A DNA stretch of 64,000 bases from a virus, in IMG/VR virus record IMGVR_UViG_3300028392_001993, positions 114,198 through 178,197 of that record; one strand, written 5' to 3'. Both the position numbers and the translations under genes were made by a program. Position 1 is the stretch's first letter. Every line of letters starts with the position of its first letter. The notes beneath the pieces are model-generated. The model was not told the DNA's origin, did no database searches, and saw nothing but the letters and a program-made list of their open reading frames with translations. Positions 6,001 through 54,130 of this stretch are shown piece by piece.

Positions 6001-7556
6001 GATCTCACATAGTATGTTGTACCAGCGGTCAAGCCGCCCAGTGTTGGTGTTAAGAATACAACTGCTTGTCCTACATACAAATGAGTAGCATTGTAGTAGG
6101 TGATATAGTTTGTGCCAGCTTCAGTAGCAGTACATTGAAAACTACTAGTTCCCGAAGCATAGCTGGCAGGAACAACATCGCCAGTAAATTTTACTTTGAG
6201 ACCATTGGTAAATGTTACCCCGTTAGGACTTGTATATGTTTTTTTACCAATAATATTATCAATGTCAAGAGTGCTACTATTGCCCGGTTCAACTAGTACA
6301 ATTCGCCCAAAGATTTCTGAGTTAGTTCCAGACTGATAGTACAATGTGTCTTGTACCGCAGTCAGTAAAGGAATCTGTTGAAATGCTCCTACTGCATCTT
6401 TGTACCACTGAGTATTGCTGTATACGGCACCATAGCTGATGTTAAATTTATTAAGATTTGCAATATCTGACGTTTTGCTTAGGTTGATGTAGGTAACACC
6501 GCCATTATCTACATAGGTAATGGTCCAGACTTGATATCTGTCTTCTGGTGGTATGTCTGTTGTTTGACTAAATGTTGTGGTGTCATAACTACCAACCAAT
6601 CCATTGTTGGCTGCACCGGCTGCCAACGGATCAAAAAAAGTAGTGCGTTGCCAGCCGCCTGCTTCGGCATCAGTAATAGGGTTGGTGAATATCAATGTGC
6701 GGTTGTTTAGATTGGTAATGCCATCTATGCCGCCATATTCTAAAATAAAGTCTGTTAGTGATCGATTATTGATTTGATCAAACTGTAAGTTAGTTACCAA
6801 GTCAATGGTGCCAATGCTGTTTAGGTTATAATAAAAACTTTGTGCGTCTTTGAGTGGTGCATTGAATACCACAGTACCAGAACTAGTACCGTTGTCAGCT
6901 ACCCCATAAACATCTCTTGAGCTGATGTTAGGAGTGGCAGGCATGGTACCTGCGATTCCCGGTGCTGCCTGAATCCAAAATTGGTCAGTGACCTGGAAAG
7001 TGTAACTGCCGCCACGCACCAATTCGATTACAGGGTTGTTGCCAATTACACCTGAGAAGTTGTAGGCATTGCCATTGGTTGTGACCACGTAGTTAGCAGT
7101 GGTAGGTATTCCAGTAGAACTAACACTTACTGCCGCAGGGCCGCCTGGAATCCAATAGTATTGACTAAAGTTTATAAATGCATCAAAGTCAACAAACGGA
7201 TCCCAGGTATAATATTCGCTTGAATACAGTCTATCTGGGCGACCACTGTTGCCACCTTGGAACCCCACAGCATCGTTGATGCCAGGATATGTAATGGCAT
7301 TTTTAATAGTGCTAGAATCAGGCACAAGACTGACCACGCCCGGTTCAAGCTGATAGTCAGCTCGTGTCTTGGTGGGTTCAATTACATATTTGTCGTTGGG
7401 GTTTATGCCCGGACCAACAGTACGACCAATAAAGCCTTGTGTTTTTCTAAAGTTAGGCTCTTGAATCAGTTGGTCAAGTGTGGCAGCCAAGAATTGCTTG
7501 TTGGCATCGGTCTGAAAAATTTCAGGAAGAAAATCTACGCTACGTGTGTTGGCCAT
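1..7556 (-). CDS. Giant baseplate/tail structural protein in the gp7 position (C-terminus cut by window edge)
   Basis: An open frame runs without a stop from the ATG at 7556 to the left edge, giving at least 2518 codons. The start is set by a TAATG overlap with the stop of the gp6 gene, so the two are translationally coupled. The N-terminus (MANTRSVDFLPEIFQTDANK) has the style of giant structural proteins of aquatic T4-like phages, recognised from memory. In T4 the gene after 6 is 7 (a 1032-aa wedge protein), so this is a positional counterpart, at least 2.4 times longer. Most of the protein is beta-rich, Ser/Thr/Asn-rich repeat sequence without catalytic motifs. The part near the left edge (about 262-760) holds three FG-GAP-like repeats, e.g. 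FGYSVAMSLDERWMYIGAPG. Role inferred: peripheral baseplate or host-surface contact. The virion role is likely; equivalence to gp7 is unproven. Confidence 0.75.
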   Translation of the reverse strand, partial: MANTRSVDFLPEIFQTDANKQFLAATLDQLIQEPNFRKTQGFIGRTVGPGINPNDKYVIEPTKTRADYQLEPGVVSLVPDSSTIKNAITYPGINDAVGFQGGNSGRPDRLYSSEYYTWDPFVDFDAFINFSQYYWIPGGPAAVSVSSTGIPTTANYVVTTNGNAYNFSGVIGNNPVIELVRGGSYTFQVTDQFWIQAAPGIAGTMPATPNISSRDVYGVADNGTSSGTVVFNAPLKDAQSFYYNLNSIGTIDLVTNLQFDQINNRSLTDFILEYGGIDGITNLNNRTLIFTNPITDAEAGGWQRTTFFDPLAAGAANNGLVGSYDTTTFSQTTDIPPEDRYQVWTITYVDNGGVTYINLSKTSDIANLNKFNISYGAVYSNTQWYKDAVGAFQQIPLLTAVQDTLYYQSGTNSEIFGRIVLVEPGNSSTLDIDNIIGKKTYTSPNGVTFTNGLKVKFTGDVVPASYASGTSSFQCTATEAGTNYITYYNATHLYVGQAVVFLTPTLGGLTAGTTYYVRSIAASGIKFTVSAVPNGPAVTLLNGTGTMNSIAISDHEYYVSGVGSAIDLLPVEDFAVYESYASDYNDSTIAVEPGDIDYLTISRASRDLNAWTRSNRWFHIDVINATAKYNNTVADLDNNFRAKRPIIQFRPGIRLWNMGTKGKAPVDIIDFAETDAFSNVEGTTSYTTNGYTLVEGSRVIFAADTDLSVRDKIYVVSFATPDTIPPLISQPIIVLTEAADGAVQLDESTVCLNGETIAGKTFWYDGTAWIQAQQKTAVQQAPLYNVYDTEGVSFGNKVKYQSSDFTGSKLFSYAVGDTTILDPVLQFPLQYLNINNVGDILFDNNLYVDTFTYTIDNVSTTYPISSGAAREYEDRVTYHKLIGWQTAAVTQQIYQQFKFTYTGQTLKLDVPVLAQSSIAFPVIKVYVGSVFIEPSMYTYTVGTDNTVITLTDIYLPTDVIEVLALSDQTSNVGFYQVPNNLQSNPFNSNSPAFTLGTIRTHYESICENLLTLTGPINGSNNSRDLGNIIPYGLEILQQSSPLTLAGYFMRSPSYNIFESLQYNSREYIKFKAQMLDAVLIQNNIALKTTSSILDQAIQDITLGKLDTQPFYWGDMIPQGVTTYSNTYTVGLTTRATFDTVQVYNYTSSNYLGLCVYLNNDILTRDKDYVVAVDGPRLTISATLAIGDTVIINEYNATYGSFVPNTPSKMGLYPKWQPEITTLVTSNGTGEFIIGHDGSETPVFGDIRDQVLLEFETRIYSNIKQDGNPVPLTVEDVLPGQFRDTGYTFEEINTIFGTDLLSYCGWNKLNYNEQVFSATNEFTWNYTSDTNKLNKQNLLGAWRGIYRYFYDTQQPSYSPWEMLGLEVEPSWWVGRYGPAPYTADNLVLWDDLEAGLVADPVAPYYKPKYSRPGLTSVIPTGGEGELLSPRDSVVGGVPLNQNISSRYQKSWAIGDGGPVEASWWNSSGYPFSVMHVLAVTRPAKFFALFADRDLYKFDTDYNQFLYNQRYRLDANGIEVYGNGTSKASYINWIVDYNRQTGIDSTDLLTADLKALDVRLCYRMASYSDKQYIKLLTEKSSPNSTNTTLTIPDESYNILLYKNQPFDQIRYSSVAVQKVDGGGGYAVFGYGSSQAYFEILQSQAVGKLQEYSAGGITVRVPTFYSNNVTQVPYGFVFANETAVSDFLLSYGKLLEKQGLTFTNIVNGYILDWSRMVNEFLYWSQQGWGSNAIINLNPLAMGLTVTRPGAVVDSIVTETSENLLLDQNSNEIPTRTLNVVRLGNTFTIQPLSTQSISYINLRFTNFEHMIVLSNKSVFGDLIYDPITGARQNRLNLVAVTTNDWNGSVDTPGFILNQDNVQEWTGLKRYTKGQIVKYKNVYWSALTIVQPSTKFDFNVWAQSNYNQIQLGLLPNLANKADQLANSYNINAANIETDNDLLAYGLIGFKPRQYLAALNLDDVSQVNVYRQFLGTKGTILAADLFKAANLGKEAADYTIYENWAVQRAVYGANANRSFLELRLDRALLSSNPSLVQVTVPQEPSQADQQIYLTDVWRSSYKLTSTDILPTTTELPTDIGLPTAGYVSLDDTDITVFDIANPSSLAANIDKIEVGTSIWVAKINNYDWGIYRAQAVPGQIQHVCDNLNGTSRVIFNDQHKLSVGDKLIIKFFDTEINGVYTVLGVPNLDTVNIAFTFTSNRSVANGSGIGFTLQTTRISQASDVDTLPYALNILPGAKVWVDDNGAGLWEVLQKNNVFSSIIALNPVLLDANEQYGQSVAQARNKLAALVGSPNYGFNTGTTKGAIYVYVKSYGDQYTPVSPVGQGDAILTLDVTGVRGYGNAVDFGNQNWAVAGASASLGSGSQANNGYACVIYRDPQLGAPGVIPYGQWQLLTQPAGYGTLLTGAGEFGYSVAMSLDERWMYIGAPGLNSIHAYGYVDWQSQFIKVFADGTTTSYAINSTIQINNEYQLKVTLNGQVQTVNVDYTIDNNFNIVTFTSIPGKTTAGGFNIGTTYTILTVGTTD
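262..760 (-). repeat. Three FG-GAP-like (integrin beta-propeller type) repeats inside the giant protein
   Basis: Reading the minus strand, three consecutive units follow the pattern FG-x-S-V/A ... W/A-x-x-G-A/S-P ... G-x-x-Y-V-Y. They are GQSVAQARNKLAALVGSPN (about 760-640), GYGNAVDFGNQNWAVAGAS (about 570-440) and FGYSVAMSLDERWMYIGAPG (about 352-262). This is the layout of FG-GAP blades, which build beta-propellers in integrins and microbial adhesins. Further blades may lie beyond the window edge. Confidence 0.55.
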
Positions 7557-20547: not shown

Positions 20548-20575
20548 TTGACAAATGTTGTAAAAGTGCTACAAT
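20548..20575 (+). promoter_or_regulatory. Sigma70-like promoter (TTGACA - 16 nt - TACAAT) for the gp55/gp47/gp46 operon
   Basis: TTGACA at 20548-20553, a 16-nt spacer, then TACAAT at 20570-20575. It is a near-consensus host-type promoter placed 28 nt before the gp55 start, with AGGAG at 20586-20590. The -10 box overlaps AATAAATA (20573-20580), so a late start from the same place is also possible. Confidence 0.7.
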
Positions 20576-20602: not shown

Positions 20603-21499
20603 ATGACTTTACTACCCAAAACGGCACCACGTGTCAACTATCTCAACAACAGAGATATCTTAAAAGAAATTCACCTTAGCAAAAACAACTACTGCTGGTT
20701 CCAAGACAGAGCAACGGATCACCAGTTTGATATTATTTTGCCGTCAATAGACAAGATCAATCAGCGCACTGTTGCAGAAGCCCGACGCAACCGAGCAGAT
20801 CGGCTCAAGCGAGAAGGTACCATTGTAGACCCTAAAAAAATACCCAATACAGACATTGTGTTCCGTATCACGTGTTGGGATCACATACCCATGGCGCCCA
20901 AAAAAATAACCAAGGCCGAAGCCAAACGTCGTAAACTGGAAGACATTTTGGACCTGGACGATGCCACAGAAGAGGATCCCTTGGCAGATATTGTGGATGC
21001 ACCCGTACTGGACTTGAACCATGTGCGTGTGAACTTTCCTCCGTTTGAACACTATCGCATAGACGAAGAAAAGAAGCCGTTTATTGTGGGGCGATCGCAC
21101 TGGAAAGGTGACCTGGCCACTGGAGAGTTTTCCAAAGATCACGGTAACATGACCAAAAAACTGGCCATGATGTTTATGAAATTATGCGAAAGATATGCTA
21201 CAAGGAGTAACTGGCGTGGATACACCTACAACGAAGAAATGCGGGGACAAGCCCTGTTACAACTCAGTCAAATCGGACTCCAGTTCGATGAATCAAAATC
21301 GCAGAACCCTTTTGCGTATTATACTGCCGCTATCACTAATAGTTTCACTCGTATCCTAAACATTGAGAAAAAGAATCAAAACATCCGTGATGACATTTTG
21401 GAAATGAACGGACTCAATCCGTCATGGACTCGCCAGAACTCAGGCAAACACAGCATGGCTGCCATGTCCGGACCGGTTGTGTCTAGCCTTGATGAGTAG
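20603..21499 (+). CDS. 55: Late-transcription sigma factor gp55-like
   Basis: 298 aa (T4 gp55 is 185 aa). The C-terminal 120 residues carry the gp55/sigma region 2 signature: MTKKLAMMFMKLCERYATRS, NWRGYTYNEEMRGQALLQL, FDESKSQNPFAYYTAAITNS and FTRILNIEKKNQNIRDDIL. gp55 replaces the host sigma factor on RNA polymerase and recognises the TATAAATA late box. The N-terminal 150 residues are extra and basic/acidic (KKITKAEAKRRKLEDILDLD) and have no T4 equivalent. The matching late boxes found elsewhere in this window support the assignment. It is first in the operon, behind a host-type promoter, as expected for a gene made before late transcription. Confidence 0.88.
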   Translation: MTLLPKTAPRVNYLNNRDILKEIHLSKNNYCWFQDRATDHQFDIILPSIDKINQRTVAEARRNRADRLKREGTIVDPKKIPNTDIVFRITCWDHIPMAPKKITKAEAKRRKLEDILDLDDATEEDPLADIVDAPVLDLNHVRVNFPPFEHYRIDEEKKPFIVGRSHWKGDLATGEFSKDHGNMTKKLAMMFMKLCERYATRSNWRGYTYNEEMRGQALLQLSQIGLQFDESKSQNPFAYYTAAITNSFTRILNIEKKNQNIRDDILEMNGLNPSWTRQNSGKHSMAAMSGPVVSSLDE

Positions 21500-21511: not shown

Positions 21512-22528
21512 ATGACTAACCTATTTCGTAAAGCCGCGGTGTTCACAGACATCCACTTTGGCCTGAAAAGCAACAGCACTCAACACAATGAGGACTGCCT
21601 AAATTTTGTAAAGTGGGCAACCGCTAAAGCAAAGGCCGAAGGCTGTGAGACCTGTTTGTTCCTGGGCGATTGGCACAACAACCGTGCCAGCCTTAACATT
21701 GTTACCTTAAACTACAGCCTACGTGCATTGGAGCACATGAATGACAACTTTGACAGCGTGTACTTTATTCCTGGTAATCATGATCTTTACTATCGAGATA
21801 AGAGAGATATTCAAAGCGTTGAATGGGCAAAACATTTACCTAACGTCCATATTTGCAACGATTGGTTTAGCAGTGGCGACGTGGTTATCGCTCCTTGGTT
21901 GTGTGGTGATGACCACAAGCGTATTCCCAAACTAAAAGGCCGGTACATGTTTGGACACTTTGAACTGCCCGGATACCTGATGAATGCCATGGTAGAGATG
22001 CCAGACCACGGCGAAGTACGCAGAGAAGATTTCACGAACTTTGAACACGTTTTCACCGGACACTTTCACAAACGTCAGACCAAGAAAAATATCACCTACA
22101 TTGGCAATTGCTTTCCACACAACTATGCTGATGCTGGCGACGACGATCGCGGCTTGACCATCATTGAGTGGGGGCAGGATCCTGTGTATCATGCTTGGCC
22201 CGATCAACCACGTTATCGTGTGTTGGGTCTGGCCAACATCATTGACAACGCACCTAGTTTGCTTGCTACAGGTATGCATGTGCGGGTACAGTTAGACATC
22301 GAAATTAGTTACGAAGAGGCCAATTATATTAAAGAAACTTATATCAAAGAATACAGCCTTAGAGAAATGGCCTTGATACCCAACAAAAATAGTTCAGTAG
22401 ATACCGACATGGCCCCCGGTGAAGTCAAGTTTGAGTCAGTTGACCAAATTGTCACAGACCAAATTACTAATATTGAAAGTGAATTCTACGACAACAAATT
22501 GCTGTTGAAGATTTATCAAACTTTATGA
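21512..22528 (+). CDS. 47: Recombination nuclease subunit gp47-like (Mre11/SbcD family)
   Basis: 338 aa, same size as T4 gp47 (339 aa). The five metallophosphatase motifs are in order: FTDIHFG (D13, H15), LGDWHNN, IPGNHDLYY, MFGHFELPG and FTGHFHKRQ. Together they bind two metal ions. With gp46 it forms the Mre11-Rad50-type complex that resects double-strand ends for recombination-dependent replication and degrades host DNA. The gene overlaps the next by ATGA. In T4 genes 47 and 46 are near neighbours; here two radical SAM genes separate them. Confidence 0.93.
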   Translation: MTNLFRKAAVFTDIHFGLKSNSTQHNEDCLNFVKWATAKAKAEGCETCLFLGDWHNNRASLNIVTLNYSLRALEHMNDNFDSVYFIPGNHDLYYRDKRDIQSVEWAKHLPNVHICNDWFSSGDVVIAPWLCGDDHKRIPKLKGRYMFGHFELPGYLMNAMVEMPDHGEVRREDFTNFEHVFTGHFHKRQTKKNITYIGNCFPHNYADAGDDDRGLTIIEWGQDPVYHAWPDQPRYRVLGLANIIDNAPSLLATGMHVRVQLDIEISYEEANYIKETYIKEYSLREMALIPNKNSSVDTDMAPGEVKFESVDQIVTDQITNIESEFYDNKLLLKIYQTL

Positions 22529-23658
22529 CGTCGGAAACATTTTGTGTTAATCCTTGGCTTACTTTACACACAAAATTTACACATGGCTACAGTCCATGCT
22601 GTAGATTTCGAGGTGTAGTGGCCAGCCATGACATACAACAATATGTTCACAGCGATCAACTGATCAAGATCAAACAAGACTTACTTGCAGGTCATGCTGT
22701 GCCAGAATGTTCAGATTGTTGGAATCATGAAGCCCGGGGCTATGTTAGCAAACGTCAGCGAGACAATCAGACCTACAAACAAATTTTTCAAGCCTTGTAC
22801 AAAGATCCGCATACACCCGTGGATCGATTTGTTGAATACTATGTGCGACTGGGCAATCATTGTAATCTGCGATGTACCAGTTGTGATGACACCCTAAGCT
22901 CGGGCTGGATCAGCGAAAACAAAAAATTCAATATATCAACCAAATCAGTTGAAATACTAGATGACGATCACGAAGTGTGGAATCATATGAGATCACATGC
23001 TGCCACCATTGGTACAATTGAGTTTGTCGGCGGCGAACCATTTATGATGTGTCAAGATGCACAACGAGACCTATTTAATTTTTTGGTTGACACTGGACAT
23101 GCATCGCACATCCGAATCAAATATAATACCAATGGCACACGACTGCCTACCGAGCAGTTGGAATACTGGAGCAGATTCAAAGCAGTAGAAATCAATGTGA
23201 GTGCAGACGGTGTAGGCAAACGATTTGAATATTTGCGGTATCCTGCTGAGTGGTCTGCTGTTGAGCAAAATATTGAATTTTATAAAAATCTTCAAAAGAC
23301 TTCGATTCCACAATTGGAGCTTACCATAATGCATACTATCAGTATCCTAAATATTGGATATGTGCAAGAAATGTTGGATTACTGCAATCAACACAATCTC
23401 AAAATTTTCATAAACATGCTGGAGTATCCTGAAGTTTTAAATATGTTTGCTGTGACCGATGATATCAAGCAGTGGATCCTGAGTAGAATCAAATCTGTTG
23501 ATCACCCAGTGATTGCAAGCATGAGCAAAAACTTGCAGTTGGGGTCTGTGACAGGATCCGACATCATGAATTTCTTGTTGCCGTTGGATCAGCGTAGAAA
23601 TCTAAGTGCAGAAAAAACTTTTCCTGAATTGATTGAATGCTTAAAGTCAGTGACATAA
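22525..23658 (+). CDS. Radical SAM protein 1 with N-terminal SPASM/twitch-like Cys region
   Basis: 377 aa. The radical SAM cluster motif CNLRCTSC gives C113, C117 and C120 (CX3CX2C), followed by IEFVGGEPFMM (GGEP at 169-172) and KYNTNGT. The first 75 residues hold five further cysteines (C7, C25, C26, C62, C65), with SPCCRF and CSDCW spacing like the twitch/SPASM half-domains that bind a second iron-sulfur cluster. This layout, auxiliary cluster before the core, occurs in the twitch-type radical SAM proteins of aquatic T4-like phages. Such enzymes cleave S-adenosylmethionine to a 5'-deoxyadenosyl radical; most SPASM relatives modify peptides or proteins. The substrate is unknown. It starts within the gp47 stop (ATGA), so co-translation is expected. 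Confidence 0.8.
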   Translation: MTSETFCVNPWLTLHTKFTHGYSPCCRFRGVVASHDIQQYVHSDQLIKIKQDLLAGHAVPECSDCWNHEARGYVSKRQRDNQTYKQIFQALYKDPHTPVDRFVEYYVRLGNHCNLRCTSCDDTLSSGWISENKKFNISTKSVEILDDDHEVWNHMRSHAATIGTIEFVGGEPFMMCQDAQRDLFNFLVDTGHASHIRIKYNTNGTRLPTEQLEYWSRFKAVEINVSADGVGKRFEYLRYPAEWSAVEQNIEFYKNLQKTSIPQLELTIMHTISILNIGYVQEMLDYCNQHNLKIFINMLEYPEVLNMFAVTDDIKQWILSRIKSVDHPVIASMSKNLQLGSVTGSDIMNFLLPLDQRRNLSAEKTFPELIECLKSVT

Positions 23659-24614
23659 CAACCATTGATATTGAAACTATTAACAATTGCAATGCTCGGT
23701 GTCCATTGTGCTTGCGTGGTTCTGGCATGCGTACCAATGACTCTTTGAACTGGGATCAAGTGGTGGCAAACACGTCATTGAATTTTTGGCACAACCTCAA
23801 AGTCATAAACTTCAACGGTACCACTGGCGACAATATCATGCATGCCAACATTGAGCGCATTGTGCAATGGTGTGCCGAAAACACCACGGCCGACATAAAC
23901 ATTCACACCAATGGATCTTTACGCAGTACGGATTGGTGGCAACAGTTTGGTTCCATGCTAGAGTCTTGCCCACACAAAGTCGTATTTGGCATTGATGGAC
24001 TAGAAGACACCCATTCCATCTATCGCATGGGCACTGACTACGCCAAAGTTATAGCAAATGCACAGGCGTTTATGGCAGGCGGTGGCAGAGCCGAGTGGCA
24101 ATTTATTGTGTTTGAGCACAATGCACATCAGATCGACGCGGCCAGACAACTGGCTGATCAACTAGGATTTGCTAGATTCTTTGTGTTGTATCAAGATCGT
24201 TTTGATGAATCGGCAGACATTCCTGTCAAACGGTACAACAAAGGTCTAGAAAAAATCAACGCCGAAATTGTTTCTAATCCTTCGTCCAACAGTATCACTC
24301 GACGCATTGCCGATTCCGATCGCAAGATCACTTGTAGAAGTCAACAGATTGGCTGGTTGTCAATCTATGCAGACGGTACTGTGTGGCCCTGTTGTTGGCT
24401 CATGGGCTGGCACCGTGCTCAGCATCAGGCACAGGCCGCCTTGGTAAATTATCACTTTAAGAAGATATTGAATATAGACTTTGATCAAATTTCCCTGTAC
24501 AATTGCACACTAGAGAGTATTGTAAACAGCGATCTTTGGCAAAAAAGATATCCAAATAGTTTTGAACACAACCCAAATGCTATTTGTTTACAGCAATGCT
24601 CAGGTAAAAAATGA
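23637..24614 (+). CDS. Radical SAM protein 2 with C-terminal SPASM-like Cys region
   Basis: 325 aa. CNARCPLC gives C18, C22 and C25 (CX3CX2C). The usual GGE motif is replaced by NFNGTTGDN (residues 58-66). INIHTNGS and VVFGIDGLED follow the TIM-barrel strand order. The C-terminal region has C233, C252-C253 (GTVWPCCW), C290, C317 and C321, consistent with one auxiliary iron-sulfur cluster. The start at 23637 overlaps the end of the previous gene by 22 nt and the stop overlaps the gp46 start as ATGA. It is clearly paralogous to radical SAM protein 3 (ANAQAF and a shared H-N-x-H stretch). Substrate unknown. Confidence 0.8.
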   Translation: MLKVSDITTIDIETINNCNARCPLCLRGSGMRTNDSLNWDQVVANTSLNFWHNLKVINFNGTTGDNIMHANIERIVQWCAENTTADINIHTNGSLRSTDWWQQFGSMLESCPHKVVFGIDGLEDTHSIYRMGTDYAKVIANAQAFMAGGGRAEWQFIVFEHNAHQIDAARQLADQLGFARFFVLYQDRFDESADIPVKRYNKGLEKINAEIVSNPSSNSITRRIADSDRKITCRSQQIGWLSIYADGTVWPCCWLMGWHRAQHQAQAALVNYHFKKILNIDFDQISLYNCTLESIVNSDLWQKRYPNSFEHNPNAICLQQCSGKK

Positions 24615-26374
24615 TACACATTAAAAACTTAACTGTTAAAAACTTTATGAGTGTAGGCGCGGCTACCCAAGGCATTGACTTTGACCGCAACGACCTTACA
24701 CTGGTGTTAGGTGAAAACTTAGACTTAGGTGGAGACGGATCACGTAACGGTACAGGCAAGACCACAATCATCAATGCACTGAGTTATGCATTGTATGGAC
24801 AAGCACTTTCAAACATACGCAAAGATAACCTAGTAAACAAAACCAACGGAAAGAATATGCTGGTTAGTTTAGACTTTACAGTCAACGGACAAGAATACAG
24901 AATCGAACGTGGTCGCAAGCCTAATGTGCTCAAGTTCTATGTTAACAACGAGCACAAGGCCGCCGAAGATGAAGCACAAGGCGATTCAAGAGAAACACAG
25001 GATGCTATCGAGCATGTGATGAATATGAGCCACGACATGTTCAAACATGTGTTGGCATTAAACACTTACACCGAGCCGTTCCTGAGCTTGAAGGCCAACG
25101 ATCAACGCACTATCATTGAACAATTGTTGGGCATTACATTATTGAGTGAACGTGCTGACGCGATCAAAGAACTCAATCGTCTGACCAAAGATGCTATTCA
25201 AGCGGAAGAATTTCGTATACGTGCTGTACAAGAAGCCAACAAACGTATTGAAGAACAGATTGAAAGTCTGCGTAAACGTCAACGTCTTTGGATTGCCAAA
25301 CGTGACGAAGATGTGGGCAAACTAGAACAAGCCATTGGTGACTTGGAGCACATTGACATTGATGCTGAAGTACAAGCACACAGGAACCTAGAAGAATTCC
25401 ATGTCAAGAAAAAAGCCTTAGACGAAGCCAATCGGTATATTCGTCAAATTGACACAGATGATACCAAACTAACAAAACTGTTGAGCAAACTCAAGACAGA
25501 AATTGAAGCACTGGATGCTCACAAGTGTCACAGTTGCGGGCAGGACTTGCATGATGACAAACAGGATGAGTTAAAACAGGCCAAACAGGCTCTAGTGCAA
25601 GAAACAGCACTACAACTCTTGGCCAACAATACTCAACGTACAGAACACGAAGATACCATCGCCACAATTGGCTTGTTGGGTACAGCACCCTCTGTGTTTT
25701 ATGATTCATTAGAACAAGCACTTAACCACCGTAACACAGTAGAAACCTTACGAAAAGATCTAGCCACACGATCTGCGGATGCGGATCCTTACGGAGAGCA
25801 AATAATAGACATGCAAGGACAGGCGTTACAGGTTGTAACATATGATGCTCTAAACGAACTCACCAGAGTACAGGATCATCAAGACTTCTTGCTCAAACTA
25901 CTCACAAGCAAAGATAGTTTTGTACGTAAAAAGATTATTGATCAAAACTTGAGTTATTTGAATGCAAGACTCACACACTACTTGGATCGTATTGGATTGC
26001 CACATACTGTGAAGTTCCAAAACGACTTAACAGTTAGCATTGAAGAATTGGGTCGTGAACTAGACTTTGATAACTTATCGCGTGGTGAACGCAACCGATT
26101 GATTCTATCAATGAGCTGGGCATTCCGTGATGTGTGGGAAAGTTTATACTCACCTATCAACTTGTTGTTTATTGACGAGTTGATTGACAACGGTCTAGAC
26201 ACGCAAGGCGTAGAGAATGCATTAGCATTGCTCAAGAAGATGAGTAGAGAACGCCACAAGAGTATTTGGCTAGTAAGTCATAGAGACGAACTAGCAGGAC
26301 GAGTAGAAAATATTCTCAAGGTAATCAAAGAGAACGGGTTTACAAGTTACAACACGGATGTTGATCTTGCGTGA
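24611..26374 (+). CDS. 46: Recombination nuclease ATPase subunit gp46-like (Rad50/SbcC family)
   Basis: 587 aa (T4 gp46 is 560 aa). An SMC-type split ATPase: Walker A GSRNGTGKT at residues 43-51, a long coiled coil with a zinc hook CHSCGQ near residues 303-308, the signature LSRGERNRLILSMSW, and Walker B NLLFIDELID, then a D-loop/H-loop region ending SIWLVSHRDE. It partners gp47 in DNA end resection and recombination-dependent replication. The start overlaps the radical SAM 2 stop (ATGA) and the next gene begins 17 nt inside its end, locking the enzymes into one translated block. Confidence 0.93.
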   Translation: MIHIKNLTVKNFMSVGAATQGIDFDRNDLTLVLGENLDLGGDGSRNGTGKTTIINALSYALYGQALSNIRKDNLVNKTNGKNMLVSLDFTVNGQEYRIERGRKPNVLKFYVNNEHKAAEDEAQGDSRETQDAIEHVMNMSHDMFKHVLALNTYTEPFLSLKANDQRTIIEQLLGITLLSERADAIKELNRLTKDAIQAEEFRIRAVQEANKRIEEQIESLRKRQRLWIAKRDEDVGKLEQAIGDLEHIDIDAEVQAHRNLEEFHVKKKALDEANRYIRQIDTDDTKLTKLLSKLKTEIEALDAHKCHSCGQDLHDDKQDELKQAKQALVQETALQLLANNTQRTEHEDTIATIGLLGTAPSVFYDSLEQALNHRNTVETLRKDLATRSADADPYGEQIIDMQGQALQVVTYDALNELTRVQDHQDFLLKLLTSKDSFVRKKIIDQNLSYLNARLTHYLDRIGLPHTVKFQNDLTVSIEELGRELDFDNLSRGERNRLILSMSWAFRDVWESLYSPINLLFIDELIDNGLDTQGVENALALLKKMSRERHKSIWLVSHRDELAGRVENILKVIKENGFTSYNTDVDLA

Positions 26375-27212
26375 TATAAAAGTAATACACTTAGAACCCA
26401 CAGACGTGTGTCAGGCTGCCTGTGCGTTGTGTGCGAGAGAAGTTGATCCGAGCTTTAGAAAAGATCGTCAGCATCATCTATCATTAGGACAAATACTAAA
26501 AGTGTTTGATGAAGAAAAAATCAAACAACTGGATAAAATGTTCATGTGCGGCAACTATGGAGATCCAGCTGCCGGTAAAAACACACTAGATATTTTTCAA
26601 GAATTTAGACGTATTAATCCCAATATTGTATTAGGCATGAATACCAACGGTGCTATACAAACTACATTCTGGTGGTACGAATTAGCAAAAATACTAAATC
26701 AACCACAAGACTATGTGGTGTTCTCGATTGATGGACTGGAGTACACCAACGCCACTTATCGTCGAAATGTAAACTGGGCCAAGCTCATGGCAAATGCTCG
26801 TGCATTTATCGATGCTGGCGGTTCAGCACACTGGGATATGCTGGTATATCGACATAATCAACACGAAGTTGATGCGTGTGAACAGCATGCTAGAGATTTG
26901 GGATTCTCTTGGTTTAGAGCCAAAGTTTCAAAACGTGGATTTACTGAATCGTTGCAATTTCCTATTGGATGGCAACCAATAGCTGTTGACTCTAGTGTTA
27001 TAAATTGTCATGCATTGAGAGAACAAAGTGTTTATATAGATGCACAAGGTCATCTTGGACCTTGTTGTTGGCTAGGAGCACGACAACAAAATTTTGTTAC
27101 AGATGCTGATGCTATACCTACTCAGGATCCAGTATGCGCTATCACTTGCGGATCGACTGCCGCAGGCACAGCGTTTGATCAGCAGTGGCAAAGAGAAGTA
27201 GCATTATGTTAG
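26358..27212 (+). CDS. Radical SAM protein 3 with C-terminal SPASM-like Cys region
   Basis: 284 aa. CQAACALC gives C18, C22 and C25, the same positions as in radical SAM protein 2. MCGNYGDP (65-70 is GNYGDP) stands where other family members have GGEP. GMNTNGAI, VVFSIDGLEY and ANARAFIDAGGSAHWDMLVY match protein 2 in order and spacing. The C-terminal cysteines C217, C236-C237 (LGPCCWLG), C260 and C264 suggest an auxiliary cluster. The ATG at 26358 lies in the end of gp46 and the stop overlaps the next start as ATGTTAG. Substrate unknown. Confidence 0.8.
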   Translation: MLILRDIKVIHLEPTDVCQAACALCAREVDPSFRKDRQHHLSLGQILKVFDEEKIKQLDKMFMCGNYGDPAAGKNTLDIFQEFRRINPNIVLGMNTNGAIQTTFWWYELAKILNQPQDYVVFSIDGLEYTNATYRRNVNWAKLMANARAFIDAGGSAHWDMLVYRHNQHEVDACEQHARDLGFSWFRAKVSKRGFTESLQFPIGWQPIAVDSSVINCHALREQSVYIDAQGHLGPCCWLGARQQNFVTDADAIPTQDPVCAITCGSTAAGTAFDQQWQREVALC

Positions 27213-28213
27213 CCAACTGGCATTTCCATATTGAAGTATCCAGTAAGTGTACCTTGCGGTGCCCTCGTTGTGCTAGACAAGAAGTTCCCAACGGCCTTGT
27301 GAATACCGAACTAGATTTAGAATTTTTTAAACGTAACTTTACTCCAGAATTTGTTTTGGCAAATGTAGAAAAAATTACGTTCTGTGGTGACGACGGTGAT
27401 CCTATTTATGCACACGACTTGATCCCAATAATTAGCTATCTTAAAAGTATAAAATCTATTGAGATTGTTATTGTCACAAACGGCAGTCACAAAAAACCCG
27501 AGTGGTGGATAGACTTAGGTTTTGTATTAGATGCTAAAGATACTGTACACTTTAGTATAGATGGGTGGGACAATGCCAGCAATAATCAGTATCGAGTGAA
27601 TAGTGACTTTGACAGCATAGTACAAGGTATATCTGCATTACGCAAAGCCAGTACTTGCCAACTAGTATGGGCCGCAATTGCATTTCAATTCAATGAAGAT
27701 CAAATTGATTACATGCGAGATTTTGCTGTGTCAATTGGCATGGATCGATTTCAACTGACTAAGAGTACAAAGTTTGGCAGTATCTATTCTAGTTATGGAG
27801 TAAACGATCCACTAGAACCCAGTGTAAAATTTGTCAGCAGTAGTCATAGATTTGAGCGAGACGTTGTTGAGCTAACCGATCGGTTGACAACTCCTGTACA
27901 CAGTAAAAATATCGAATTATACAATCAAACAAAAAGTCGTAACGGTGTTACTCCGTTATGCGAAATAGGCAACAAAGGTTTGTACATTGATGCTCGCGGC
28001 AGGTTATTTCCTTGCTGTTGGGTGGCCAATAGATACAATCACAATTCACAATGGCAACAACTGGCAGAAAACTTCGATTTACATACAAAAACTTTAACAA
28101 ACGTACTGGCAGATCCTTTTTGGAACAACGAATTTCAAGCGTTTAAATGGCAGGAATGCCAGACAAAATGCTCAAGTTCACAGGTAGACAGAAATTACGC
28201 AACTTCTTGGTGA
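27206..28213 (+). CDS. Radical SAM protein 4 with C-terminal SPASM-like Cys region
   Basis: 335 aa from the ATG at 27206. A GTG at 27185 would add seven residues, but the ATG fits the ATGTTAG overlap better. CTLRCPRC gives C15, C19 and C22. FCGDDGDP (61-66 is GDDGDP) replaces GGEP. VIVTNGSHKKPEWW and VHFSIDGWDN follow. Near the end, LYIDARGRLFPCCWVANRY and a last CQTKCSSS supply the auxiliary cysteines. It is more diverged from proteins 2 and 3 than they are from each other, but has the same architecture. It closes the tightly overlapped block; 40 nt separate it from the GIY-YIG gene. Confidence 0.8.
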   Translation: MLANWHFHIEVSSKCTLRCPRCARQEVPNGLVNTELDLEFFKRNFTPEFVLANVEKITFCGDDGDPIYAHDLIPIISYLKSIKSIEIVIVTNGSHKKPEWWIDLGFVLDAKDTVHFSIDGWDNASNNQYRVNSDFDSIVQGISALRKASTCQLVWAAIAFQFNEDQIDYMRDFAVSIGMDRFQLTKSTKFGSIYSSYGVNDPLEPSVKFVSSSHRFERDVVELTDRLTTPVHSKNIELYNQTKSRNGVTPLCEIGNKGLYIDARGRLFPCCWVANRYNHNSQWQQLAENFDLHTKTLTNVLADPFWNNEFQAFKWQECQTKCSSSQVDRNYATSW

Positions 28214-28253
28214 AAGAGATAACTATAACGCAAGGATAAATCGCATACAACAC

Positions 28254-28682
28254 ATGACATGGCTATATCAAGATACCCCAATTGAGACGTTGCCAGAAGA
28301 ATGTGTTGGATTTGTTTACTTGATCACAAACAATCTCACTGGACGCAAGTACATAGGCAAAAAATTAGCAAAATTTAGCAAAACCACATACAAGACTGTA
28401 AAACAAAAAAACGGCATTAAAAAGCGGAAGAAGATACGCTCCAAGATCGATAGTGATTGGAGAGAGTACTATGGGTCAAGCCCAGAATTAACCGCAGATG
28501 TAATCAAACTAGGCACCAAAAACTTCACCAGAGAAATACTTTACTATTGCAACTCCAAGTCAGAATGTTCATACATTGAGGCTAGAGAACAATTCAGTAG
28601 GCGAGTATTAGAGTCACGAGATTATTACAACGGCCATATTCAAGTTAGAGTACATGGCTCACACATCATAAACAAAATTTAA
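28254..28682 (+). CDS. GIY-YIG domain protein, conserved phage type
   Basis: 142 aa. The GIY-YIG core is at the N-terminus: GFVYLITNNLTGRKYIGKK (first motif read as VYL, second YIG), followed by Lys-rich sequence and a WREYYGSSPEL motif, with a C-terminal ECSYIEAREQFSRRVLES in which the Glu could be the catalytic acidic residue. It lacks the DNA-binding NUMOD repeats of typical homing enzymes and resembles a small nuclease-like protein frequent near gp46/gp55 in aquatic T4-like phages. Function unknown; a nuclease role is inferred from the fold. AAGGA precedes it by about 17 nt. Confidence 0.7.
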   Translation: MTWLYQDTPIETLPEECVGFVYLITNNLTGRKYIGKKLAKFSKTTYKTVKQKNGIKKRKKIRSKIDSDWREYYGSSPELTADVIKLGTKNFTREILYYCNSKSECSYIEAREQFSRRVLESRDYYNGHIQVRVHGSHIINKI

Positions 28683-28881
28683 CAGGCAGCGATCACGACA
28701 ACGTGCTGAGTGTATTGGCTCAGCCCCATTGAGGATATGTGAGATACCATATTTAGACTTGGGCGTCAAAGGCAATTGCTAACTTAAGGCAACAAATGGT
28801 TTGGGCTCTGTGAAACAGATACACCCCTTGCTCGTAGAACTTGGATCTAATATCGGGTTACTAGGGTTCCGTTGATATGTG

Positions 28882-28924
28882 AAGCTTGAGTAGGGGGTAC
28901 CGGTCAACCGCCTCCGTTGTGCTT
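28882..28924 (+). ncRNA. Candidate structured RNA element (nested GC-rich hairpin)
   Basis: An outer AAGC...GCTT pair encloses GGGGG (28893-28897) pairing with CCTCC (28911-28915), with a further GGT/ACC possibility inside, and T residues follow. This is the most GC-rich patch in an otherwise AT-rich spacer. It may be the 3' end of a longer RNA covering 28700-28930. No known family was recognised. Confidence 0.3.
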
Positions 28925-29020
28925 TTAAAAAAAGATAATTTCGCAAGAAGTTGTACTTTTAAAAAGTATAAATCTCATTACTATTAGATGACTGTGCTAC
29001 TCAGATGATGCTCTCTCATT

Positions 29021-29040
29021 TTCACCGTGCGTACGGTGAA
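29021..29040. repeat. Perfect inverted repeat TTCACCGT-GCGT-ACGGTGAA
   Basis: An 8-bp perfect stem with a 4-nt loop and no T-tract on either side, so it is less likely to be a terminator than a protein-binding site or RNA hairpin. Confidence 0.6.
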
Positions 29041-29120
29041 TTATGACCAATTAATCTAGATGATACTTAATTCAAGTAACTTAAAAAAACAATCAGTTGT
29101 TGAGCGATAGCGAAAACAAC

Positions 29121-29142
29121 AGACTTACGTAGTAAGTCTTTT
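29121..29142 (+). terminator. Rho-independent terminator-like hairpin
   Basis: AGACTTAC, loop GTA, GTAAGTCT, then TTT. It follows directly after a second stem (GTTGTT/AACAAC, 29096-29120). It would end transcripts from the gp55/gp46 operon before the next late promoter at 29153. Confidence 0.55.
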
Positions 29143-29152
29143 AAACATTCTA

Positions 29153-29160
29153 ACTAAATA
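29153..29160 (+). promoter_or_regulatory. Late promoter ACTAAATA before the second GIY-YIG gene
   Basis: ACTAAATA, matching the TAAATA core of the other late boxes in this window, about 60 nt before the ATG at 29221. Confidence 0.4.
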
Positions 29161-29220
29161 TAGGTGTAGTTCGCGGAATTGGCGTTCCCAACTACTCTAA
29201 CATTAAATAGGAATGTCAGC

Positions 29221-51615: not shown

Positions 51616-53459
51616 TGGCCGCCTCGTTTAACGAATCACAAAAGATTGACTACCTTTGGAAAAAGGTCGGCTACGGGGTAACCAAAACTGCCGAGCCTGC
51701 TTCCAAAGAAGCCTTCAACGAAAGCATACCCAGTCCACTGCTGTATCGTGGCGACCTTATTTGGACACAGAGTGGAGACATACCTGCCACACCTCCGGCT
51801 AATACCACGTCACTGGTGCAAGTGTACAAAGATGGTGGCGGCGCTGGATACAGTCCTACAATACAATGTACTGAAGACCTAACAGCACCTGACAATCAAA
51901 CCTGGAAAACAAACCTAATCAACTGGATTCCCACACAGTTTGGTGACAACTACCTGGTGCAAGTGTACGCTGGCGCCGCAAACATAAGCAATCCTCAAAC
52001 AGCAGGTACTAAACTGTTTGGCGCAGGTTCTGGCAGTGATGACACTTGGTTCTTTGATTATCAATCTGGCGTTCTAAACTTCAATGGCGCAACTATACCA
52101 ACTGCTATTGGTACCGGAACAGCCAACACAATTTATGTTGTGGGCTACAGATATGTTGGCGAGTTTGGGGTAGACACAACATTTATCAGCAACGGCACAA
52201 GTAATGTGAACATTGCCACTGCCAATGGCAACATCACCATGGGTGTGAATGGCACCAGCAATGTTGCTGTAATTTCTAACACAGGTGCATACGTTTCGGG
52301 TGTGGTTAGCGCCTCGGGCAACATAACTGGCAACTACTTCATTGGTAATGGTAGTCAGTTAACTGGTGTTGCCGCAGCCAGTGTAAATGCCAATGCATTG
52401 ATTGGTAACACACTAAGTTCGAACGTACTATATTCAAGCCTGACTCAAGTTGGTACACTGAGTAATGTATCCGTCTCTGGCAATGTAGTTGGCGGTAATG
52501 TTTTAACAGGTGGTGTAGTATCAGCCACTGGTAACGTAACCAGCGGCGGCGTTGTTACTACCGGACCCAGTGGCAACATCAGTGGTGCCAATGTAGTTTC
52601 GGCCACCACGTTTACTGCCACTGCCAACATCACTGGCGGTAACATACTAACAATTGGTAAGGTTAGTGCAACAGGTAATGTATATGGCAATGCAATATTG
52701 TCAGACAACTATTTTTATGCCAATGGTCAACCAATTCCTACAGGTATTGTTTATACTGCCGCATCGTCTCCGCCTGCTGGCCCAGATGTTGGAGATCAAT
52801 GGTATGATATTATCAATGATGTGTTGTATGAATTCCTTAATGACGGCACAAGCACATACTGGGTAGATTCAAACTCTCCAGCATTTGCCGGCGGTGTTGT
52901 GGCCAATGTGGCAATTTCTGGAGTGCTACTACCAGTTGCAAACGTCACATATGATATTGGTAGCAGTACTGTATATTTCCGCAACACCTACACACAGAAC
53001 CTCTACACCAACAATAGATTGCCTGCATACAATATGCCCCTGGGTGCTGTGGTACAAACAATAATGAGTTCAACACTGGGTGGTAGCGTAACAAACAGCA
53101 CCAGTTATGCTGACATCAGTTATGCAAATGTAACAATCACACCATCTAGTGCAACAAGTAAAATATTAATTTTGGCCACAGGAACCAGTGAATTTAGTGC
53201 TGTGTCAGGTTTTGGCGTTACTTCCTATACTCAATTGGTTAGAGGTGCTAGTACTAGTTTGCAAGTTCAAAGCACCGGAACATCAGGGACAGGTGGCACA
53301 GATGCAGGCGCAACAGGTGCTATTTCTTACAGTTATATTGATAGTCCGGCAACCACAGGTGCTGTGACTTATAAATTACAGCAAAAAGTGTCTACTGCCA
53401 GTAGCACACTGACCAGTACAAATATTTGGCTGATAGCAATGGAGATAACCGGATCATGA
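51615..53459 (+). CDS. Tail fibre protein with baseplate-attachment N-terminus (614 aa)
   Basis: 614 aa. The N-terminal 190 residues are non-repetitive (FNESQKIDYLWKKVGYGVTK, LLYRGDLIWTQSGDIPATPP, WFFDYQSGVLNFNGATIP), the type of conserved head that anchors fibres to the baseplate. Then come T-G-N repeats and a DQWYDIINDVLYEFLNDG module that reappears in the 2144-aa fibre. A C-terminal jelly-roll-like tip of about 145 residues begins MPLGAVVQTIMSSTLGG and ends NIWLIAMEITGS. That tip type is common in receptor-binding domains. Its stop overlaps the next start by ATGA. Confidence 0.78.
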   Translation: MAASFNESQKIDYLWKKVGYGVTKTAEPASKEAFNESIPSPLLYRGDLIWTQSGDIPATPPANTTSLVQVYKDGGGAGYSPTIQCTEDLTAPDNQTWKTNLINWIPTQFGDNYLVQVYAGAANISNPQTAGTKLFGAGSGSDDTWFFDYQSGVLNFNGATIPTAIGTGTANTIYVVGYRYVGEFGVDTTFISNGTSNVNIATANGNITMGVNGTSNVAVISNTGAYVSGVVSASGNITGNYFIGNGSQLTGVAAASVNANALIGNTLSSNVLYSSLTQVGTLSNVSVSGNVVGGNVLTGGVVSATGNVTSGGVVTTGPSGNISGANVVSATTFTATANITGGNILTIGKVSATGNVYGNAILSDNYFYANGQPIPTGIVYTAASSPPAGPDVGDQWYDIINDVLYEFLNDGTSTYWVDSNSPAFAGGVVANVAISGVLLPVANVTYDIGSSTVYFRNTYTQNLYTNNRLPAYNMPLGAVVQTIMSSTLGGSVTNSTSYADISYANVTITPSSATSKILILATGTSEFSAVSGFGVTSYTQLVRGASTSLQVQSTGTSGTGGTDAGATGAISYSYIDSPATTGAVTYKLQQKVSTASSTLTSTNIWLIAMEITGS

Positions 53460-54130
53460 TAACATTATTTCATGCTATTCAAAGTCTAGTGCCCGGAGCA
53501 GAAGTCAGTGTGGGCATATTTGACCAATCAATAGAATGGCACAAGCCTGACACTGCCCCAGTGTCTTTGGAACAAATATTGCAAGAACAACAGCGTTTGC
53601 AACAGGCCTATGACTGGAATGAATACCAAAGAAATCGTGCTAGAGAATATCCTAGCATCCAAGAGCAATTAGATGCCTTGTATCACGCTGGTGTGTTTCC
53701 ACCGGCTATGGCTGCTAGAATACGGGCAGTAAAAGCAAAATACCCACGCTATTCTCTAGAACAAACACAAACACAAACAGTAGAGCAGTCAGCGCCCAAA
53801 ATGTCAGTTGATGAGTGGCTGGCAGAAGAAACAACAAAAATGACTGCCGAAGAATGGCTAGCAAAACAAAACTCGGCGACTCATATGACTCGAGAAGAGT
53901 GGCTGGCATCACAGGCCACTGTAAAAATAGAACACAACACCGGGCCCGCAAATACTGTCACTGTTACTCGAACTATGACTACAGAAGAGTGGTTGCGAGA
54001 GCAAACTGCCCAAGAAAATAATCAAATGATGACCCGCGAACAGTGGCTAGAACAACAAAAAACACAGGCCCAGCCGCGACAAATGACCCGTGAAGAATGG
54101 CTTGCACAGCAAGCAAACGTAGGAAATTAG
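53456..54130 (+). CDS. Fibre-associated protein with six EEWLA-type repeats
   Basis: 224 aa from the ATG at 53456, which overlaps the fibre stop (ATGA); a TTG at 53426 is in frame but less likely. Residues 60-110 contain NRAREYPSIQEQLDALYHAG and MAARIRAVKAKYPRYS, a motif found beside or at the end of phage fibre genes and probably linked to fibre assembly. From residue about 120 the protein is built of repeats with a 10-residue core: MSVDEWLAEE, MTAEEWLAKQ, MTREEWLASQ, MTTEEWLREQ, MTREQWLEQQ, MTREEWLAQQ. Function of the repeats is unknown; they would form amphipathic helices. Confidence 0.7.
   Translation: MITLFHAIQSLVPGAEVSVGIFDQSIEWHKPDTAPVSLEQILQEQQRLQQAYDWNEYQRNRAREYPSIQEQLDALYHAGVFPPAMAARIRAVKAKYPRYSLEQTQTQTVEQSAPKMSVDEWLAEETTKMTAEEWLAKQNSATHMTREEWLASQATVKIEHNTGPANTVTVTRTMTTEEWLREQTAQENNQMMTREQWLEQQKTQAQPRQMTREEWLAQQANVGN
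53800..54115 (+). repeat. Six-fold MT-x-EEWLA-x-Q protein repeat
   Basis: Six copies of a 10-residue core with spacers of 4 to 24 residues. Met, Glu/Asp, Trp and Leu are fixed in all six. Confidence 0.85.

Follow-up and report, generated by a model that had tools for sequence, protein, structure and literature searches.

Radical SAM genes as exchangeable cargo around the gp47 and gp46 recombination genes of a T4-like phage

Introduction

Why should genes for four radical S-adenosylmethionine (SAM) enzymes lie interleaved with gp47 and gp46, the recombination genes of a T4-like phage? The arrangement occurs in a 64-kb stretch of DNA (the window), which is the last part of the 178,197-bp record IMGVR_UViG_3300028392_001993 of a large T4-like phage. 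We find that the four genes, here called rSAM-A to rSAM-D (A to D for short), are exchangeable cargo in a frame, gp55-[slot 1]-gp47-[slot 2]-gp46-[slot 3]-segE, of a T4-like phage group. Their tie to gp46 and gp47 is positional: they are read together with these genes but are no part of recombination. The genes of the run are as follows.

20603..21499, + strand: gp55, late sigma factor, first gene of the run (phrog_12791, 1.1e-75)
21512..22528, + strand: gp47, SbcD-like recombination nuclease subunit (phrog_100, 1.3e-61)
22525..23658, + strand: rSAM-A, N_Twi_rSAM family with GGE (NF033640, 290 bits; cysteines; model pLDDT 93)
23637..24614, + strand: rSAM-B, GxxGD family (PF04055, 5.4e-6; alignment; cysteines)
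24611..26374, + strand: gp46, SbcC-like recombination subunit (phrog_77, 3e-99)
26358..27212, + strand: rSAM-C, GxxGD family (PF04055, 1.1e-9; alignment; model pTM 0.83)
27185..28213 (GTG start) or 27206..28213 (ATG start), + strand: rSAM-D, GxxGD family (PF04055, 1.1e-7; alignment; cysteines)
28254..28682, + strand: SegE-like GIY-YIG gene (PF19835, 6.1e-33; conserved position)

From gp47 to rSAM-D, each start overlaps the preceding stop: by ATGA at gp47/A, 22 nt at A/B, ATGA at B/gp46, 17 nt at gp46/C and ATGTTAG at C/D. The last overlap is that of the ATG start of rSAM-D at 27206; the gene could instead start at an in-frame GTG at 27185. The coordinates and overlaps of these six genes given by a first-pass annotation of the window all held, as did its claim that the set is read together.

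The gp55-segE frame and its cargo slots

In loci retrieved with rSAM-B or rSAM-C, the frame gp55-gp47-gp46-segE was constant and the intervening genes changed. Because retrieval with rSAM-C biases towards rSAM-C, an unbiased sample of 80 relatives' loci was retrieved with gp46 alone. The sample includes contigs that are near-copies of each other, so the slot counts that follow are rough rates. An rSAM gene lay in slot 1 (the gp55/gp47 gap) in 6 of 52 loci. Slot 2 (the gp47/gp46 gap) held rSAM genes in 12 of 69, other cargo in 31 and nothing in 26. In slot 3, between gp46 and the SegE-like gene that forms its downstream edge in relatives, rSAM genes were by far the commonest cargo (45 of 77, with other cargo in 10 and the slot empty in 22). 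In many relatives rSAM-C starts within the end of gp46, the overlap being comparably short; in the gp46-retrieved sample it adjoins gp46 in only 19 of the 80. Two relatives whose gp46 is 93% identical (L141 and L142) lack rSAM genes both between gp47 and gp46 and downstream of gp46.

The other cargo, named by eye from sequence without a profile check, included SGNH-like hydrolases, P-loop proteins, 2-oxoglutarate-oxygenase-like and amidinotransferase-like proteins and short-chain dehydrogenases (SDRs). The slots also held a B12-binding radical SAM protein, in L036 a solute symporter, and in L101 a ligase together with a Rieske dioxygenase set. The L101 genes (L101:1933-6207, in slot 2 of a 337-kb phage contig) read, again by eye, as a Rieske dioxygenase alpha/beta pair accompanied by a TctC-type receptor and an AMP-forming ligase.

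A functional tie to gp46/gp47 is disfavoured because near relatives lack rSAM genes there and unrelated cargo fills the gaps elsewhere. The same observations count against the suggestion of a modification linked to DNA ends or replication. The absence from close relatives that was to speak against the cluster was found for the gp46/gp47 association. A gene order as striking as rSAM genes between gp47 and gp46 can therefore arise as a cargo effect.

The four radical SAM proteins

Pfam Radical_SAM (PF04055) matched all four proteins (E 1e-9 to 5e-6); A, C and D scored above its curated cut-off of 29.5 bits, and B, at 27.1 bits, just below. The CX3CX2C motif was invariant among all orthologues examined, in alignments covering A, B, C and D, and to judge by sequence the four proteins look catalytically intact. 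They had been described as four consecutive CX3CX2C proteins within 22525-28213; all four are present, but gp46 splits B from C, and the set extends outside this region, with 19 Radical_SAM matches at E < 0.001 in the whole record, 12 of them above the curated cut-off. The family was found in 27 of 28 related records, with 8 to 21 matches in those longer than 120 kb.

The four proteins belong to two families. rSAM-A (377 residues) is a member of NCBIfam NF033640 (N_Twi_rSAM; 290.3 bits against a curated cut-off of 170). Its N-terminal twitch cysteines (C7, C26, C62 and C65) precede the core C113/C117/C120, which is followed by a GGE motif that is kept. rSAM-B, C and D, which scored about 30-33 bits with NF033640 or were unlisted, are not members. 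In these three the core lies close to the N-terminus, GGE is replaced by an invariant GxxGD, and the C-terminal twitch has the form C...CC...CX3C (in rSAM-B, core C18/C22/C25 and twitch C233, C252/253, C317 and C321), which confirms that three of the four share one architecture with GxxGD in place of GGE.

A twitch domain is defined by one auxiliary cluster and a SPASM domain by two (PMC9012708). Extra cysteine clusters of SPASM/twitch type had been noted in the four proteins, and an auxiliary cluster is indeed predicted in each; however, the conserved cysteines provide ligands for one cluster only, of twitch type, and none of the four has the roughly seven cysteines and two auxiliary clusters of a SPASM domain. 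Profile searching aligned the auxiliary domain of BtrN to the N-terminal end of the N_Twi profile (residues 6-70, E 0.0077). Taken alone, this alignment weakly suggests that the N-terminal region of N_Twi proteins may be a relocated twitch.

AlphaFold predicted a radical SAM fold for rSAM-A (predicted local distance difference test, pLDDT, 93; predicted template modelling score, pTM, 0.90) and for rSAM-C (pLDDT 81, pTM 0.83), and both models match solved radical SAM enzymes, with their partial TIM barrel. The nearest solved structures are CteB and SkfB for A and BlsE for C (2.4e-10; 16% identity, template modelling score about 0.55), with SkfB as the second match of C. These matches between predicted and solved folds are at superfamily level and name no substrate. 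A check against characterised families such as QueE and the activases had also been proposed, and the proteins are neither. They scored far below all QueE models (best 21.5 bits against a cut-off of 260) and far below the cut-offs of all curated activase models. Among the NCBIfam radical SAM models for maturases of peptides, including ribosomally synthesised and post-translationally modified peptides, none reached its equivalog cut-off with any of the four, all being far below.

Origins of the four genes

The resemblance of B, C and D had been taken to point to duplication and specialisation in this phage, with phylogeny proposed as the check. In the tree, A falls among N_Twi proteins of its own genome, of relatives and of bacteria, and B, C and D each have an orthogroup of their own with good support, that of C joining bacterial sequences and sequences from archaeal metagenome-assembled genomes. 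Forcing the phage B, C and D groups into one clade without bacteria lowered the log-likelihood by 30 and was rejected by the approximately unbiased test (p-AU 0.0037), although a quick tree had been inspected beforehand and some branches are long. B, C and D being separate lineages, their likeness is therefore old and does not come from tandem duplication within this phage lineage, which is ruled out. Of the two orthologues searched for in IMG/VR, rSAM-C is the more widely kept (314 loci, compared with 14 for rSAM-B).

Gene partners and a probable sugar context

We consider sugar or glycan tailoring the most likely role of the enzymes, with moderate confidence. Sugars or other small molecules are favoured over peptides because of two gene fusions, the context of two bacterial loci and sugar-type genes in the phage's own genome. 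The first fusion, present in six loci in slot 3, links a GxxGD rSAM with an SDR.

L047:3493-5235; also in L017, L030, L036, L038 and L073: GxxGD rSAM-SDR fusions

A 74%-identical counterpart of the fused SDR is a separate neighbouring gene in five other loci, and a related pair is found in two more. The second fusion, in L117 (Bdellovibrionota), combines a GxxGD rSAM with a domain whose DGD motif is invariant; this domain is a separate gene adjoining rSAM clusters in phages and bacteria. In L115, the bacterial relative nearest the SDR-linked rSAM genes, an SDR lies just before the rSAM, and the surroundings hold genes for a UDP-sugar dehydrogenase, a GFO_IDH_MocA oxidoreductase, a hexapeptide transferase, a DegT aminotransferase and a methyltransferase. 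Together, such gene families constitute a surface-sugar cluster. In L114 (Halobacteriovoraceae) a GxxGD rSAM is followed by an N_Twi rSAM, by one more rSAM and then by a GT2 glycosyltransferase, and N_Twi and GxxGD genes are repeatedly found side by side in both phages and bacteria. In the phage's own genome, 4,6-dehydratase-like and PseC/DegT-like genes lie just upstream of an rSAM cluster at 80-99 kb, which includes a NodU carbamoyltransferase and a relative of the arginine:glycine and inosamine-phosphate amidinotransferases; outside this cluster the genome has a GalE that scores above its cut-off. Small molecules are the substrates of the twitch enzymes BtrN and MoaA (PMC9012708).

From the observed slots, gene families, fusions and genomic partners a pathway can be sketched, whose chemistry we infer from the established radical SAM mechanism, and likewise its sugar substrate and the location of the glycan. 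The core cluster would cleave SAM, and the resulting 5'-deoxyadenosyl radical would take hydrogen from a C-H bond, while the auxiliary 4Fe-4S cluster would accept an electron or hold the substrate, as proposed for BtrN and MoaA. The substrates oxidised, epimerised or deoxygenated in this way would be nucleotide sugars or the sugar units within a glycan. SDRs and glycosyltransferases would work in the same pathway, and the glycan would be located on the virion fibres or on the surface of the infected cell.

Several points weigh against a sugar substrate. The fold matches leave the substrate unfixed, the best for A being the peptide maturases CteB and SkfB, with SkfB also second for C. SDRs and carbamoyltransferases serve non-sugar pathways as well. 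The DGD proteins and the LDAD proteins, putative glycosyltransferases by their motifs, had no firm Pfam or PDB match, with glycogenin reached only at E 0.5. A 527-residue GxxGD rSAM at one chromosomal place across several filamentous cyanobacteria (the Microcoleus-group loci L123, L128 and others) stands alone, with no sugar gene nearby, and the window's own slots hold no sugar gene.

The fibre-side module

The largest group of rSAM genes lies elsewhere in the genome.

Genome 82969-107275 (L013/L014), outside the window: module of N_Twi rSAM genes, NodU, an amidinotransferase relative and DXD-type proteins, adjoining fibre-like genes

The module is kept in ten relatives, with 5 to 8 rSAM genes each, and all ten have the DGD protein, NodU and P88242; the clusters had been chosen for having several rSAM genes, not for these partners. 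In the present genome the DGD-motif protein is encoded at 100735-101661. The conserved order is fibre-like genes, DXD-type proteins, 5 to 8 rSAM genes (mostly N_Twi) and NodU. Fibre-like genes were found at one end of the module in 6 of the 10, some of the other stretches ending before that point, and one of them matches a virion structural family (1.7e-10). This arrangement places a related enzyme set beside fibre-like genes, and the fibre-side module is probably more important than the gp46/gp47 set. It also gives indirect support to the earlier speculation that the fibres are a conceivable substrate, through another rSAM cluster whose place beside fibre-like genes is kept.

A broader picture can be offered tentatively. 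A widespread T4-like group would carry a multi-enzyme rSAM pathway, of up to about 20 enzymes, that makes fast-swapped unusual sugars or side-chain modifications on the phages' own fibres, radical chemistry tuning adsorption or virion protection; the gp46/gp47 slots and the fibre-side array would be two stores of one tool kit. If the product is on the fibre, it would add a new layer to virion modification, and in any case these phages hold a large, unread store of radical enzymes. The fibre-side order and the SDR fusion of the second rSAM family turn an odd gene count into a pathway with a place and partners.

Alternative explanations

The main rival to sugar tailoring is protein modification, in which the rSAM enzymes alter side chains or crosslink residues of the virion fibres, and glycosyltransferases and NodU add groups. 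The fibre-side array, with its NodU and glycosyltransferase-like genes and the structural-family match of one adjoining gene, fits this explanation, as does the likeness of the rSAM-A fold to peptide maturases. We nevertheless think it doubtful: no peptide-maturase model reached cut-off, each protein has one auxiliary cluster where SPASM maturases have two, and the bacterial GxxGD members, which have no phage fibre, sit in sugar gene clusters. The specific peptide- or protein-modification role first put forward is likewise disfavoured by the maturase scores and by partners that are mostly sugar-type enzymes. As had been noted then, no small gene resembling a precursor was recognised around the four rSAM genes, and 28200-29200 holds only short, unremarkable open reading frames.

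DNA base hypermodification, with the enzymes acting on modified nucleobases or nucleotides, is unlikely. FolE, QueD-like and QueE-like genes are present (genome 22703-23404, 25627-26133 and 30633-31484), so a 7-deazaguanine-type pathway may exist, and the DNA of many Campylobacter phages, the group that includes CP220 with its 11 rSAM genes, is restriction-resistant (PMC2853527). However, the four proteins do not approach any QueE model, rSAM number and identity vary among close relatives in which the replication genes stay, and bacterial homologues are located with sugar genes.

Equally improbable, in our view, is that the rSAM genes are assorted host-metabolism genes with no common pathway, kept since single steps aid infection. 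The symporter and Rieske dioxygenase cargo, recognised by eye, would suit such an assortment, as would two TctC-type solute receptor genes in the phage's own genome (43898-44836, just below cut-off, and 53004-53960, each near a PP-loop-like protein); the predominance of rSAM genes in slot 3 and the recurrent pairing of N_Twi with GxxGD genes in bacteria and phages argue against it. That the genes form a functional unit with gp46/gp47, as iron-sulphur enzymes acting on DNA ends or protecting or regulating the nuclease, is very unlikely despite the tight start/stop overlaps and the similar gp46/C overlap in many relatives, given the empty or otherwise filled gp47/gp46 gaps, the minority of loci with C beside gp46, and the same enzyme families far from gp46 in this genome.

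Relation to known systems

rSAM-rich phages are already known, having been reported in 2010 and 2017. The T4-related Campylobacter phages CP220 and CPt10 (Firehammervirus) have 11 and 12 radical SAM genes, including a swapped block of five with an amidinotransferase and, in CP220, two proteins of nucleotide-diphospho-sugar transferase fold (PMC2853527). They resemble the present phage in being rich in rSAM genes, but their best rSAM match is only about 24% identical to rSAM-B, no relation was detected between the two transferase-fold proteins and ours, and the available description reports neither gp46/gp47 slots nor a NodU/N_Twi fibre-side module (PMC2853527). The T4-like TARA_ERS488813_N000010, a 183-kb environmental marine genome with 12 radical SAM genes, was interpreted in terms of iron-sulphur metabolism, and gene order, families and partners are not described in the available part of the report (PMC5332604). 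The host-recognition clusters of pelagimyophages have been reported to contain radical SAM cassettes (PMC7029224).

Among characterised enzymes, BtrN (2-deoxy-scyllo-inosamine dehydrogenase) and MoaA share with the four proteins a single auxiliary cluster, but differ from rSAM-A in that its twitch is N-terminal, and sequence identity is low. BlsE, a cytosylglucuronate decarboxylase and thus a nucleoside-sugar enzyme, is like rSAM-C at superfamily level only.

What appears to be new is the slot system at gp55/47/46/segE, together with the two fusions and the conserved module beside the fibre-like genes; none of these was found in the open-licence literature searched. The same literature showed no role for the enzymes of rSAM-rich phages and contained no report linking radical SAM with O-antigen genes or phage DNA hypermodification.

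Expression of the run and other genes of the record

The run may start as a whole at a single sigma-70-like promoter before gp55, in which case the cargo genes would be expressed along with the recombination genes.

20548..20575, + strand: sigma-70-type promoter-like site, TTGACA-16-TACAAT with TG ahead of the second hexamer, just 5' of gp55

With 11 of 12 consensus positions, this site is the top of 26 consensus matches in the region, a number near that expected by chance, and is suggestive only. A T4 late promoter (TATAAATA) was rejected as the driver of the run: its two matches in the window are both distant from the run and at chance level. The best PHROGs match of the SegE-like protein, phrog_447, is labelled 'NAD synthetase', which is probably wrong. 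None of Pfam, PHROGs and NCBIfam bore out a tRNA-guanine transglycosylase-like identity for the gene at genome 17210-18775. The record also encodes a phage rubrerythrin (genome 63702-64139, 1.8e-26) and a Dps/ferritin-like protein (6456-6899, 1.3e-23), which might protect a gene set so rich in iron-sulphur enzymes or provide it with iron.

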